Source: Dictyoglomus turgidum DSM 6724 (lineage in GTDB: Bacteria > Dictyoglomota > Dictyoglomia > Dictyoglomales > Dictyoglomaceae). From it: a stretch of 64,000 bases of DNA. Below the pieces are notes generated by a model, which saw only the letters and a list, made by a program, of their open reading frames with translations, made no database searches and had not been told where the DNA came from. Position 1 is the first letter of the stretch, and every line of letters starts with the position of its first letter. Of the stretch, positions 26,581 through 44,504 are shown one piece after another. The position numbers and the translations under genes were made by a program. The stretch is from NCBI RefSeq assembly GCF_000021645.1, contig NC_011661.1, positions 1,644,723 to 1,708,722 of the forward strand, given 5' to 3'.

Positions 26581-26769
26581 ATGCTTGTAAACGATAAAGA
26601 AGTAAATTTTAAAGGAAATTTAAAAGAATTGCTTCTTTCTCTTAATTATCCCACCGAAAAAATAGTTGTACTAGTAAACGGAGAAATTGTAAAAAAGGAA
26701 AATTGGGATAACGTAGAGTTAAGAGATGAAGACTACATAGAAATTGTCTCTCTTGTGGGAGGGGGATAA
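26581..26769 (+). CDS. thiS: sulfur carrier protein ThiS
   Basis: The 62-residue beta-grasp protein ends in LVGGG, with the Gly-Gly tail that ThiF adenylates and that is then thiocarboxylated to supply sulfur for the thiazole ring. MLVNDKEVNFKGNLKELL is typical of ThiS. GGGAGGG precedes the ATG. First gene of the riboswitch-controlled thi operon. Confidence 0.95.
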   Translation: MLVNDKEVNFKGNLKELLLSLNYPTEKIVVLVNGEIVKKENWDNVELRDEDYIEIVSLVGGG

Positions 26770-27552: not shown

Positions 27553-28662
27553 ATGCTCAGGGAGATTCTTAAAGAAGCAGATGAAATCTTGAGAAAATCT
27601 CATGTCTTAGAGAATAAAGGAGGAAATGTCAGAAAAATAATTGATAAAGACAAGATATCAAAAGAGGACCTTTTTATTCTCCTCACTGATAATTCCGATG
27701 AAACTTTAATATTAATGGCTAATAAAGCAAAGAGACTTACAGAAAGGTATTTCGGAAAAGTTATAACCCTATTTACTCCTCTTTACCTTTCTAATTATTG
27801 TCTTTCTCCCTGTGAGTACTGTGGATTCTCAGCTAAACTTCAAATTCCAAGGAAGAAACTAAAGGAGGAAGAGATAATAAGAGAATACGAAGCCATCAAA
27901 CAAACCAGCATTGACAGTATTTTACTTTTAACAGGTTGTGATAAAATTAATACTCCCTTTGAATATATCCTCTATGCAGTTAAACTTGCTAAAAAATATT
28001 TTTCAGAGATCTCCATTGAAGCATATCCTATGGAGGAGGAAGAATACAGAGTCTTAGTAAAGGAGGGTTTAACAGGAGTTGTTCAATATCAAGAAACTTA
28101 TAATAAGGAAACCTATAAGAAGCTCCACCCTGTAGGTCCTAAGAGTGATTACGAATATAGATTACATACTCAAGAAAGAGCACTAAATGCAGGAGTTTAT
28201 GAGGTAACTGTAGGAGTACTTTTAGGAATTAATGATCCCTATGAAGATGTGTTTAAGAGCATTCTTCATGCGGAGTACCTCTCTCAAAAATATCCAAAGG
28301 CTGAGATTAATATATCTTTCCCAAGATTTAGAGACCCCAAAACAGGCTTCAAACCCAAGTACCAAGTAAACGAAAAATTACTTTTAAGGTTTATTTTCTG
28401 TGCAAGAATTTACCTACCCCATGTAGGAATAACCATATCCACAAGAGAAAACAGCAGATTCAGAGATAATATCATTGGCTATGGAGTCACTAAAATGTCT
28501 GCAGGTTCAAAAACTACTGTAGGGGGATATGCTCAAACTGAAACAACAAGTGTTCAATTTGAAACTGATGACAGAAGAACTGTAAATGAAGTTATTAATG
28601 CAATAAAAAATAGAGGATATAGACCAGAATTCACAAATTGGATAAAAGGAGGCCTATATTAA
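27553..28662 (+). CDS. thiH: 2-iminoacetate synthase ThiH (radical SAM)
   Basis: The ~369-residue radical SAM enzyme has the CLSPCEYCGF cluster motif (CX3CX2C) near residue 81 and the ThiH-typical VVQYQETYNKETYKKLHPVG region. It cleaves tyrosine to dehydroglycine in anaerobes, replacing the oxygen-dependent ThiO. A GTG at 27544 overlaps the thiG stop, but TTAGGTGA spaced before the ATG at 27553 supports the latter. The stop codon overlaps the thiF start (TAATG). Confidence 0.95.
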   Translation: MLREILKEADEILRKSHVLENKGGNVRKIIDKDKISKEDLFILLTDNSDETLILMANKAKRLTERYFGKVITLFTPLYLSNYCLSPCEYCGFSAKLQIPRKKLKEEEIIREYEAIKQTSIDSILLLTGCDKINTPFEYILYAVKLAKKYFSEISIEAYPMEEEEYRVLVKEGLTGVVQYQETYNKETYKKLHPVGPKSDYEYRLHTQERALNAGVYEVTVGVLLGINDPYEDVFKSILHAEYLSQKYPKAEINISFPRFRDPKTGFKPKYQVNEKLLLRFIFCARIYLPHVGITISTRENSRFRDNIIGYGVTKMSAGSKTTVGGYAQTETTSVQFETDDRRTVNEVINAIKNRGYRPEFTNWIKGGLY

Positions 28663-29264
28663 TGAATTCTTTTGAGGAAATGCTCCTTAACTATTTCACA
28701 AAAGAACAACTTGATAAAATTCAAAAAACCCGCATTGTAATAATGGGATGCGGAGGGCTTGGTTCCAATGGTGCCATTTCTCTAACACGCACAGGATTCA
28801 AAAACTTTATCCTCATAGATTACGATAAGGTTGAAATTTCAAATCTTAATCGTCAAGCCTACTTTCTCCATCAAATAGGAATGCCTAAGGTAAAAGCTCT
28901 AAAAGAAAATTTATTAAAAATAAATCCCGACTGTAATATTGAGGAATATGAAGAAAAAATAACCCCTGAAAATATAGAAATATTTATGAATAAAGGGGAT
29001 ATTATCATGGAGGCCGTGGATTCAGCCCAAACAAAAACTCTTATTCTCAATACTGCTATAAAACTTAACAAGAAAATTGTCTCTGCATCGGGAGTATGTG
29101 GTTATGGAAATTCTGAAAAAATAAAAATAAAAAGATTTAATAATATCTCTATCGTAGGTGATTTTGAAAGTGATAACTCTCTTTTCAAACCCTATGCCCC
29201 TAAGGTAATTGCAATTTCAAATATTCAATGTGATGAAATCCTAAGGATGGTGCTTTATGAATAA
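28662..29264 (+). CDS. thiF: ThiF-family ThiS adenylyltransferase (short form)
   Basis: The 200-residue E1-like protein has the nucleotide loop MGCGGLGSNGA near residues 26-36, DYDKVEISNLNRQ near 50-62 and VDSAQTK. It adenylates the C-terminal glycine of ThiS. It is shorter than E. coli ThiF (~250) and lacks the C-terminal zinc-binding cysteine pairs, matching the short clostridial-type ThiF. AAAGGAGG overlaps the end of thiH and sets the ATG at 28662. It could also charge the second ThiS-like protein at 41973, since no other E1 gene is seen here. Confidence 0.88.
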   Translation: MNSFEEMLLNYFTKEQLDKIQKTRIVIMGCGGLGSNGAISLTRTGFKNFILIDYDKVEISNLNRQAYFLHQIGMPKVKALKENLLKINPDCNIEEYEEKITPENIEIFMNKGDIIMEAVDSAQTKTLILNTAIKLNKKIVSASGVCGYGNSEKIKIKRFNNISIVGDFESDNSLFKPYAPKVIAISNIQCDEILRMVLYE

Positions 29265-41972: not shown

Positions 41973-42170
41973 ATGAGGGTAATTATACGTAGAAATAATG
42001 AGATAAGGGAGATTAAAGGAGATCTTAAAGTAAGGGAAATATTTAAGGTCCTAAATATAAACCCAGAAACAGCTCTTGTAATAAAGGGAGAAGAGATTCT
42101 TACCCCCGACAAAATAGTAAGAGATGATGAAGAGATAGAAATCATACCCGTGATTTCTGGAGGAAGGTAA
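41973..42170 (+). CDS. ThiS/MoaD-like beta-grasp protein ending Gly-Gly-Arg (TtuB-like)
   Basis: The 65-residue protein has the ubiquitin-like beta-grasp pattern and ends IEIIPVISGGR. The terminal arginine after the diglycine is directly readable (GGA GGA AGG TAA). A usable sulfur carrier needs a C-terminal Gly-Gly, so either the arginine is removed or this carrier works differently. Its stop codon overlaps the start of a TtuA-like gene, strongly suggesting it is the TtuB-type sulfur donor. The GGAGGAAGG coding the tail is also the ribosome binding site of the next gene. It is distinct from ThiS at 26581. Confidence 0.85.
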   Translation: MRVIIRRNNEIREIKGDLKVREIFKVLNINPETALVIKGEEILTPDKIVRDDEEIEIIPVISGGR

Positions 42171-43126
42171 TGCACTGTACTAAGTGTCATAATGAAGCAA
42201 GCATATATATAAGAAGGCATAATACTGCCTTTTGTAAGGAACATTTTATAGAATATATATATGGACAAGTAGAGAAAGCTATTAAAAAATATAAGATGTT
42301 TGAAAAAAATGACCAAATCCTTGTTGCAGTCTCCGGAGGAAAGGACAGCCTTGCCCTATGGGATATTTTAATTTCCTTAGGATATAAAGCTGATGGCTTA
42401 CATATCGATCTTGGAATTTCAGAATATTCTGAGAAATCAAAGGAAACTGTTAAAAAATTTGCAGAAAGTAAAAACTTAAAACTCCATATCATCTCTATAA
42501 AGGACCTATATGGTTTAGGAATAAAAGAAATTGCTCATAAAAATAGAAAAACCCCCTGCGCTACTTGTGGCGTAATAAAGAGGTACATAATGAACTTAGC
42601 TGCTCTGGAATTAAAATATAATGTGATTGCCACAGGACACAATCTTGATGACGAATCTGCAACTCTCCTTGGAAACATCCTTCATTGGCAAATAGACTAT
42701 CTTAAAGCCCACTCTCCAATACTCCTTGAAGATGAGGTTGGATTTGCAAGAAAAGTTAAGCCCCTTTATAGAGTCTCAGAGTACGAAACCTCTGCCTATT
42801 GTATTATGAAGAAAATTGAATACATAATTGACGAATGTCCTATGTCCATAGATGCTCAATCTCTTAAATATAAGGAAATCTTAAATATCATTGAAAGGGA
42901 TTCCCCCGGAACAAAAGAACAATTTTATTTTGGTTTTTTAGAAAAAGGAAAAATTTATTTTAGCCCAGAAAAAAGAGATATAAAGCTAAATAATTGTAAA
43001 ATCTGTGGACAACCTACTACCTCAGAAATATGCGGATTTTGCAGGCAAATGACAAAGGCAAATTTAGAACCTCTACGGATAAAAGAATTTGTAATAAAGT
43101 TAAAAGATTCTTATGGGCAAATTTAA
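42170..43126 (+). CDS. ttuA: tRNA 2-thiouridine synthetase of the TtuA/TtcA family
   Basis: The 318-residue protein has an N-terminal zinc finger (CTKCHNEAS, CKEHF), the PP-loop VSGGKDSLA near residues 55-63, the cluster cysteines CATCG near 129-133 and a C-terminal zinc finger (CKICGQPT, CGFC). This layout is that of TtuA, which thiolates U54 of tRNA in thermophiles with sulfur from TtuB. The third cluster Cys is plausibly in DECPMS. Coupled to the ThiS-like gene (TAATG), it is a strong context match; the related TtcA/Ncs6 functions remain alternatives. Confidence 0.88.
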   Translation: MHCTKCHNEASIYIRRHNTAFCKEHFIEYIYGQVEKAIKKYKMFEKNDQILVAVSGGKDSLALWDILISLGYKADGLHIDLGISEYSEKSKETVKKFAESKNLKLHIISIKDLYGLGIKEIAHKNRKTPCATCGVIKRYIMNLAALELKYNVIATGHNLDDESATLLGNILHWQIDYLKAHSPILLEDEVGFARKVKPLYRVSEYETSAYCIMKKIEYIIDECPMSIDAQSLKYKEILNIIERDSPGTKEQFYFGFLEKGKIYFSPEKRDIKLNNCKICGQPTTSEICGFCRQMTKANLEPLRIKEFVIKLKDSYGQI

Positions 43127-43519
43127 TATATCCTCATCTTTTTTAAAATAAGCATCAAGTTTTATGGTGGGATTAGTATTAATTCTCAAAGAAAAAACTA
43201 AATAACATATCTCTGGAATCATACTATTTTTGTCCTTTTCTGACAAATACTGTCCTCCTTCAGGATGGGAATGATAAACCCCTATAAAGTTTTGCCCAAT
43301 TTTCTCTATAAATCTTAAAATTTTAATCTCTTCCCATGGATCTATAAGATATTCTCTATAAGGATCTGAAGAAACATTCTTAGTCGTAAAATAGCTTTTA
43401 ACGATAATTTGAGAAGCTCCCACCTCACCCCCAAGAATTCCACACGCCTCAAAGGGATATTCATGGATGGAATGTACAACAAGCATCTTAAAAATATCCT
43501 TAGGAAGATAAATTTCCAT
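43100..43519 (-). CDS. JAMM/MPN-domain metallopeptidase (JAB1/Mec+-like)
   Basis: The 139-residue protein shows the full JAMM zinc-protease signature: a glutamate in PFEACGILGG near residue 24, then VYHSHPEGGQYLSEKD near 90-105, i.e. HxHPx6SxxD. Prokaryotic members cleave after the Gly-Gly of ubiquitin-like proteins or sulfur carriers. The neighbour on the opposite strand encodes such a protein ending GGR. It begins 4 bases after the radical SAM gene, and its 3' end overlaps the TtuA-like gene by 27 bases. Confidence 0.9.
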   Translation of the reverse strand: MEIYLPKDIFKMLVVHSIHEYPFEACGILGGEVGASQIIVKSYFTTKNVSSDPYREYLIDPWEEIKILRFIEKIGQNFIGVYHSHPEGGQYLSEKDKNSMIPEICYLVFSLRINTNPTIKLDAYFKKDEDILNLPIRIF

Positions 43520-43523
43520 TATC

Positions 43524-44504
43524 TTATAAAAAAGACAAAACCTTAGGACAATAAGGATCTGGTTTACTAATATCCCTTTCTACTATATAAGATCTCGCAT
43601 AACACCCCCCTTTACAGAATTCTGCTACACCGCAACCAAAACAAAGTTTATATCTTTCTTTAAGTAACTTATAAAATCCATTCCGTTCCACTTCTCTTAA
43701 TGCTTCAGAAAGAGATTTTGTCCTTATTTCAGAAAGAGGCATATCCAGTACGTCACAAAGCATAATATCACCTGTAGGAGCAAGATCTATACAATCAAAA
43801 ACATGGCATTCATCTACAATAACATAGTTTGAGAGTTTCATACTCTTCATAAAAGGCACACACCAAAGTATTACGGGATATTCTTCCTTCTCAGCCTCAT
43901 AAGAAACTTCCCTAATGGTATCTATTAAGATTTTGGAATCTATATAGATTCCTGTGTTCTTAGCTTCTCCAGAGGGAATTACTGGTATCATACAAAGATC
44001 TTTTGCCCCAATATTCTTGGCAAATTTTACCATATTTTTAGCGTCATAATAATTCAAGGAAGAAATAGAAAAAATTATGGAATAAGGAATAGCAAATTCA
44101 TTGATTAAGTCTATACTATTTAACAGCTTGTCAAAATTACCTCTACCCCTCATCTTTTCAAAAGTCTCTCTATTAGAGCCATCAATAGAAACATAAAGAT
44201 ATACATTATTGTCTTTCAAAAACTTCGCTATTTCCCTGGTAAGCAGAAGAACATTAGAATTCAAAGACACTTCAAGTCCTAAAGAACGAGCCTTTTCTAT
44301 ATATTCAAAAAGATCTTCTATTAAAAGAGGTTCCCCTCCTGTGAAATCTATACTTTTAATGGATAGTTCCTTTACTTCTTCTATCAGTTTTAAGGCTCTC
44401 TTTTTTGAGATTCTTCTCTCCCAATTCCTCCTATGGACATAACAGTGAGGACAATTTAAATTACATCTTATGTCAAGGATCCAAATAATATTAGTAATGA
44501 ATAT
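43524..44504 (-). CDS. radical SAM / SPASM-domain protein with non-canonical start
   Basis: From 44504 the frame reads (I)FITNIIWILDIRC and then CNLNCPHCY (CX3CX2C radical-SAM cluster), FTGGEP, VSIDGSN and a C-terminal SPASM region: CHVFDCIDLAPTGDIMLCD and CFGCGVAEFCKGGCY. About 326 residues, normal for the family. No ATG, GTG or TTG occurs in frame between the TGA at 44517 and the internal GTG at 44270, which lies beyond the catalytic cysteines. GGGAGG is 5 bases before an in-frame ATA (44504) and 11 before ATT. A rare start codon or a sequence error are the options. Substrate unknown; likely a peptide or protein modifier. Confidence 0.78.
   Translation of the reverse strand: MFITNIIWILDIRCNLNCPHCYVHRRNWERRISKKRALKLIEEVKELSIKSIDFTGGEPLLIEDLFEYIEKARSLGLEVSLNSNVLLLTREIAKFLKDNNVYLYVSIDGSNRETFEKMRGRGNFDKLLNSIDLINEFAIPYSIIFSISSLNYYDAKNMVKFAKNIGAKDLCMIPVIPSGEAKNTGIYIDSKILIDTIREVSYEAEKEEYPVILWCVPFMKSMKLSNYVIVDECHVFDCIDLAPTGDIMLCDVLDMPLSEIRTKSLSEALREVERNGFYKLLKERYKLCFGCGVAEFCKGGCYARSYIVERDISKPDPYCPKVLSFL

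Follow-up and report, generated by a model that had tools for sequence, protein, structure and literature searches.

A sulfur carrier encoded with Gly-Gly-Arg in Dictyoglomus turgidum, and the association of extended TtuB-like carriers with JAMM proteases

A sulfur carrier of the TtuB type is expected to end in Gly-Gly, and the locus described here raises the question of why Dictyoglomus turgidum encodes one with an arginine after that motif and what becomes of the extra residue. The window (the whole stretch of 64,000 nucleotides that was analysed) is part of a single-contig genome of 1,855,560 bases. The first-pass annotation had described a carrier ending in ISGGR beside ttuA, with a JAMM protease gene convergent with and overlapping the latter, and this arrangement was confirmed by the coordinates of the open reading frames and by family scans. 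The features concerned are as follows:

41973..42170, forward strand: TtuB/ThiS-like ubiquitin-fold sulfur carrier, 65 aa, C-terminus ...IIPVISGGR, stop codon TAA at 42168-42170
42159..42167, forward strand: GGA GGA AGG, the Gly-Gly-Arg codons, which are also the Shine-Dalgarno sequence and spacer of ttuA
42170..43126, forward strand: ttuA, tRNA 2-thiouridine synthetase, 318 aa, with PP-loop SGGKDS, LIM-type zinc finger and CxxCGxxK containing Lys137
43100..43519, reverse strand: JAMM/MPN+ metalloprotease, 139 aa, with E24, H83, H85, S93 and D96
43524..44504, reverse strand: radical SAM/SPASM protein, its gene on the same strand as that for JAMM and 4 nt upstream of it
26581..26769, forward strand: thiS of the thiamine operon, product ending LVGGG, unextended, an internal control
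28638..29264, forward strand: thiF (E1-like), the strongest PF00899 match of the genome at 143 bits

The carrier has a ThiS-type beta-grasp sequence (PF02597, ThiS; 31.9 bits in the family scan, where the cut-off is 22.5) and adjoins ttuA, as a TtuB-type protein should. Its encoded C-terminus, however, is Gly-Gly-Arg and not Gly-Gly, and because the arginine is encoded last, the Gly-Gly becomes terminal only once that residue is gone. The protein would be expected to form a thiocarboxylate and to donate sulfur to tRNA. TtuA scored over the cut-off for PF01171 and TtuA_LIM_N (41.4 bits); among solved structures it comes closest to those of TtuA, 5b4e and 5gha, with an E-value of about 1e-86 (7e-87 for 5b4e). 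The PP-loop motif SGGKDS and the LIM-type zinc finger are present, the three active-site cysteines (C130, C133 and C223) are invariant, and K137, the lysine that follows the third CxxC, is kept in the D. turgidum protein.

Convergent with ttuA, the JAMM gene shares 27 nt with its 3' end. Its product matches PF14464 (48.1 against 25 bits in the family scan), and E24, H83, H85, S93 and D96 make up the EXnHSHX7SXXD motif, supplying the catalytic glutamate and the HxHx7SxxD zinc site; these residues are invariant in 15 of 15 aligned JAMM proteins. The AlphaFold model (mean pLDDT 95.5) has the MPN fold. Its matches are MPN+ enzymes of bacteria, archaea and eukaryotes, with BRCC36, the carrier-bound JAMM1-SAMP2 structure of Pyrococcus furiosus (5lda) and Rpn11 of Caldiarchaeum subterraneum (6fnn) among them. 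From this site and predicted fold the enzyme looks active, and a cut after the Gly-Gly of a ubiquitin-like carrier would be its expected reaction. The combination of a carrier with residues past Gly-Gly and a JAMM protein in the same genome is also that of the QbsE/QbsD and HcyS/HcyD pairs. Carrier, E1 and JAMM genes do not form a single pathway operon in Dictyoglomus, the JAMM gene lying outside the carrier operon behind the radical SAM gene, with thiF of D. turgidum in the thiamine operon at a distance of about 13 kb.

The order of the radical SAM/SPASM gene and then the JAMM gene is common to three Dictyoglomus genomes, and the former is a probable operon partner of the latter, whatever its relevance to the carrier. 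No ATG, GTG or TTG occurs ahead of the CNLNCPHC motif of this gene in the window; an ATA in frame (44504-44502) is preceded by a strong Shine-Dalgarno sequence (AGGGAGG), and the three Dictyoglomus genomes share the REVDIF reading, suggesting a non-standard start at the ATA at 44504, although the start codon is uncertain.

It is probable, in our judgement, that the JAMM enzyme removes the arginine and so exposes the glycine for use by ThiF and TtuA, and that the presence of such an enzyme leaves the stop codon free to move downstream. Translation would yield a carrier with one residue (Arg) past its functional Gly-Gly, the JAMM enzyme would take off this residue after Gly-Gly, the E1-like ThiF would adenylate the exposed glycine, a sulfur donor would make the thiocarboxylate and TtuA would thiolate tRNA with the thiocarboxylated carrier. 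ThiF is the likely activating enzyme for ThiS and would by extension activate the TtuB-like carrier as well. In Dictyoglomus the shift of the stop would have left the Gly-Gly codons as the ttuA Shine-Dalgarno sequence and the arginine codon and stop as its spacer, in a compact TAATG arrangement. The sequences, the conserved gene arrangement, the complete JAMM active site with its predicted fold and the link of tails with JAMM across genomes are what the analysis shows; the cut, its position and the part of ThiF and TtuA in using the trimmed product are inferred.

The closest comparison is provided by the sister species, in which the carrier (77% identical) also ends in ISGGR, with AGA instead of the synonymous AGG as the arginine codon. 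TtuA is 85% identical, and the gene order, the convergent JAMM gene and the 27-nt overlap are the same. Since ISGGR is encoded there by a synonymous codon within the same arrangement, on this comparison the tail is not due to chance. A third Dictyoglomus genome keeps the order of ttuA, JAMM and radical SAM genes; its contig ends ahead of the carrier. In the three genomes of the sister genus (G004-G006) the carriers end exactly in VSGG with ttuA adjoining, and no JAMM was found with PF14464 beyond weak matches to ORFs of about 230 aa, taken as RadC. A Gly-Gly end where JAMM is lacking agrees with trimming. The first-pass annotation had held that close relatives of this kind would refute its proposal, which inverts the prediction, as these three genomes fit what trimming predicts; "close relatives" is to be read with the caveat that a single clade for the TtuA proteins of Dictyoglomus and the sister genus is rejected (AU p = 0.015). 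For this reason the carrier/ttuA operons of the two genera are probably of different origin, the contrast of GGR and GG within the Dictyoglomaceae is not a clean within-lineage change, and a simple gain of arginine inside the family was dropped as an account. The grouping of the Dictyoglomus TtuA with Anaerolineae is weakly supported (0.24).

Comparison of the tail in genomes with and without JAMM, a check proposed in the first-pass annotation, was extended to 123 genomes with a TtuB-like carrier. Carriers were gathered from TtuA neighbourhoods and by profile search, tails were read with one HMM and JAMM presence was scored by PF14464. Three genomes with borderline JAB matches (G027, G029 and G036) were marked as doubtful, excluded from the two-by-two counts and treated as lacking JAMM in the tree. 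Weak PF14464 matches to ORFs of about 230-240 aa in genomes scored as lacking JAMM were judged by size and weak score to be probable RadC and were left uncounted; RadC scanning covered one RadC protein, that of the G312 fusion described below. Carriers extend past SGG in 49 of the 81 genomes with JAMM (the other 32 end at GG) as against 3 of the 39 without it (36 end at Gly), the three doubtful genomes making up the 123. The association is strong by genome (Fisher 1e-8) and holds by hand-grouped lineage (0.0016), the genome-level p-values overstating the evidence, as many lineages share their JAMM status by descent. There are 37 distinct tails, mostly of 1-4 residues (R, S, A, T, V, AE, QG, WG, YI, KF, VL, KIS, LEYL, VKRA and TQGA among them), with longer ones of 7, 21 and 26 residues. 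An opposite signature is seen where JAMM is lacking: the penultimate glycine is lost (SKG, SRG, STG, SAG) in 21 of 39 such genomes but in none of the 81 with JAMM, as would be expected if JAMM needs Gly-Gly. Carriers of the former group may have K, R, T or A in the penultimate position, and their last residue is always Gly save in three exceptions.

These exceptions (G044, G077 and G094) are Aquificota with a tail and no JAMM, none being found even with an Aquificota JAMM profile at E <= 10; the completeness of their assemblies is not stated, and G044 and G094 are fragmented. JAMM is carried by 98 of 136 genomes of the Aquificota group, and G091, a near relative of G094, has the same tail and a JAMM. 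The most extreme extension is that of G312, which has JAMM and in which the carrier, directly upstream of ttuA, runs through SGGADPAS... in frame into RadC (L280 530-1504); RadC is itself a JAB-fold protein.

A number of other loci seen in this survey are recorded here as separate observations. A MoaD/CysO-like protein ending AGGR, a second GGR carrier but of another family, is encoded between cysteine synthase and JAMM genes in G246 (L292 1205-1483). In G326 a 411-aa ORF (L285 1423-2658) begins like an FTR1-type iron permease and carries the JAMM domain as its C-terminal part. In many Desulfurobacteriia that lack JAMM (most of L321-L336), the carrier ends SKG or SRG and is closely followed by a gene that by eye resembles RuvX/YqgF (MALDVGFKKIGVALSDP). 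Also by eye, the carrier tail overlaps or abuts a RodA/FtsW-like gene (LDWLLL...IQLFG) at many Aquificota loci (L304-L322), which may mean co-translation of the two and so a tie to a cell-wall gene there.

Fitch counting on the TtuA tree, one parsimony reconstruction on one gene tree, gave 11 tail gains on branches with JAMM (length 10.9) as against one, G077, on those without it (18.7), which for these lengths corresponds to a binomial p of 1.3e-4; four losses were counted. In the "relatives" sample, which is less biased and was drawn from many families with completeness mostly over 90%, tails occur in 7 of 12 genomes with JAMM and 0 of 14 without (p = 0.0012), or by family in 5 of 8 and 0 of 9 (p = 0.009). 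On the parsimony reconstruction the tails arose repeatedly. Since they are almost wholly limited to genomes encoding JAMM, blocked carrier ends are very probably trimmed by that protease, and of the first-pass proposal the trimming of the carrier by JAMM is thus well supported by comparison; the association falls short of proof that the D. turgidum JAMM acts on its own carrier.

The slack at the C-terminus does not extend to the thiamine carrier. ThiS was recovered in 14 genomes with JAMM and is extended in none, always ending GG and usually VGGG, while nine of the 14 carry an extended TtuB-like carrier; within the sample the slack is thus specific to the TtuB-like family. The GGG end of ThiS in the D. 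turgidum thiamine operon was considered as a second tailed carrier and rejected, VGGG being usual in recovered thiamine carriers with or without JAMM. Elsewhere in the genome, at L009 2658-4230 (about 497.6-499.2 kb), pieces resembling threonine synthase, MoaD and MoeB/ThiF are broken over several frames, and a decayed or misread third carrier/E1 locus is proposed.

The first-pass annotation had also suggested that the Shine-Dalgarno sequence of ttuA could by itself explain the arginine, and the overlap is indeed intimate. The carrier stop overlaps the ttuA start as TAATG, the sequence GGAGG (42159-42163) is built from the Gly-Gly codons, and the 6-nt spacer to the ATG at 42170 consists of the rest of the second glycine codon, AGG (Arg) and TA. 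A spacing survey found the same double use of the SGG codons (GGAGGN) in many genomes, with ttuA starting 5-6 nt downstream. The arginine might accordingly be a mere by-product of the Shine-Dalgarno sequence and spacer, harmlessly kept or cut by any carboxypeptidase, with JAMM unrelated to it, which we consider unlikely. The sister genus, which lacks JAMM, has near-identical spacing (offset 6) with TAA directly after GG and no tail, so the arginine is dispensable and not required by ttuA spacing; in Syntrophorhabdaceae the stop overlaps the ATG right at GG. Tails also occur with no contact to the ttuA start (QG and WG in Thermocrinis, GGLEYL, G078), at non-overlapping offsets of 14-21, and they follow the presence of JAMM, a pattern not expected from a general carboxypeptidase. 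A retained arginine is also at odds with the requirement of a C-terminal glycine for adenylation (PMC11323500). Spacing is thus insufficient as the full cause; it would explain the origin of the arginine codon, as raw material, and JAMM would explain its tolerance.

A more serious alternative, though still a tentative one, is that the main task of JAMM is to release the carrier from proteins to which it is conjugated, such as TtuA at Lys137, as suggested for Thermus, with trimming secondary. In the Thermus TtuA this lysine is a site of TtuB conjugation (PMC3980101) and, as noted, it is kept here. Many genomes with JAMM also have carriers ending at GG, and deconjugation may be an equal or the main role of the enzyme. 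Taken alone, it leaves the link of tails with JAMM unexplained, yet the chemistry is the same and the activities are not exclusive; this reading is compatible with trimming, and the likelihoods we attach to the two are not shares of one total.

That the tail makes a regulated pro-form, deliberately inactive until JAMM is switched on and so controlling tRNA thiolation, is quite improbable. By established E1 chemistry a carrier extended past its glycine cannot be adenylated there, and the arginine is conserved in two species. Tails are nonetheless unrelated in length and sequence (the 37 kinds above), have been lost on some branches and are not operon-coupled to JAMM. The claim of an inactive pro-form as a control device, made in the first-pass annotation, is not supported in view of this variety and of the many GG-only carriers in genomes with JAMM, both of which look like relaxed constraint. 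Equally doubtful is a role of JAMM as partner of the radical SAM/SPASM protein, acting on another peptide and only indirectly linked to the carrier. The 4-nt distance on one strand and the order shared by the three Dictyoglomus genomes would suit it, but the association of tails with JAMM persists in lineages whose JAMM has quite different neighbours.

Returning to trimming, we lean slightly towards a broader reading, that across bacteria JAMM makes the carrier C-terminus free coding space, available for gene overlap, for a Shine-Dalgarno sequence from Gly-Gly codons or for the carrier-SGG-RadC head of a polyprotein, whereas its absence would lock the stop at the last glycine and free the penultimate one (SKG, SRG, STG, SAG). 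If true, tails could be reliably predicted from a JAMM gene, and bacterial TtuB-linked JAMM proteins would generally act in maturation. A hallmark of ubiquitin biology in eukaryotes is the maturation of ubiquitin precursors, and what would be the simplest case of it, a bacterial sulfur carrier with a single residue beyond Gly-Gly, here tracks the JAMM gene. Repeated gains and the opposite signature without JAMM offer a testable rule for stand-alone bacterial JAMM proteins and would link protein maturation to gene overlap and translational coupling. The thermophile proteins suit structures and assays, and for annotation there is a warning that carriers not ending in GG should not be trimmed or rejected.

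Several known systems resemble this one in part. In the QbsE/QbsD (Pseudomonas) and HcyS/HcyD (Wolinella) systems a JAMM-class protease removes 1-2 residues after Gly-Gly before thiocarboxylation; those serve siderophore and methionine pathways from dedicated operons, whereas in Dictyoglomus the pathway is tRNA thiolation and JAMM lies outside the carrier operon. The P. furiosus JAMM1-SAMP2 pair (5lda) is alike in fold (Foldseek E 6e-9, TMt 0.85) and in the kind of substrate, but JAMM1 is archaeal and about 23% identical to the Dictyoglomus enzyme. That carriers are processed by JAB proteins had been anticipated in 2006 (PMC1779556). JAMM maturation of sulfur carriers thus has precedents and for TtuB appears to be unreported, nothing on TtuB tails being found in the literature searched, with most subscription papers outside the reach of that search. 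In C. subterraneum it has been found by experiment that CsJAMM cleaves SAMP precursors and that CsRpn11 cleaves a ubiquitin precursor precisely after Gly-Gly (PMC6043591); there too a JAMM enzyme acts on a ThiS/MoaD-like or ubiquitin precursor, as is proposed here for the TtuB-like carrier, though that organism is an archaeon with separate ubiquitin machinery and no ttuA link shown (PMC6043591). Closest in components is TtuB/TtuA/TtuC of Thermus thermophilus, with a ubiquitin-like carrier, a PP-loop TtuA with the conjugation Lys137 conserved, one general E1 and a JAMM linked to deconjugation, which affects both carrier conjugates and tRNA thiolation (PMC3980101). Unlike those of Dictyoglomus and many Aquificota, whose tails would need removal, the carriers of two likely Thermus relatives in our set (G181 and G328, identified by inference) end exactly in GG.
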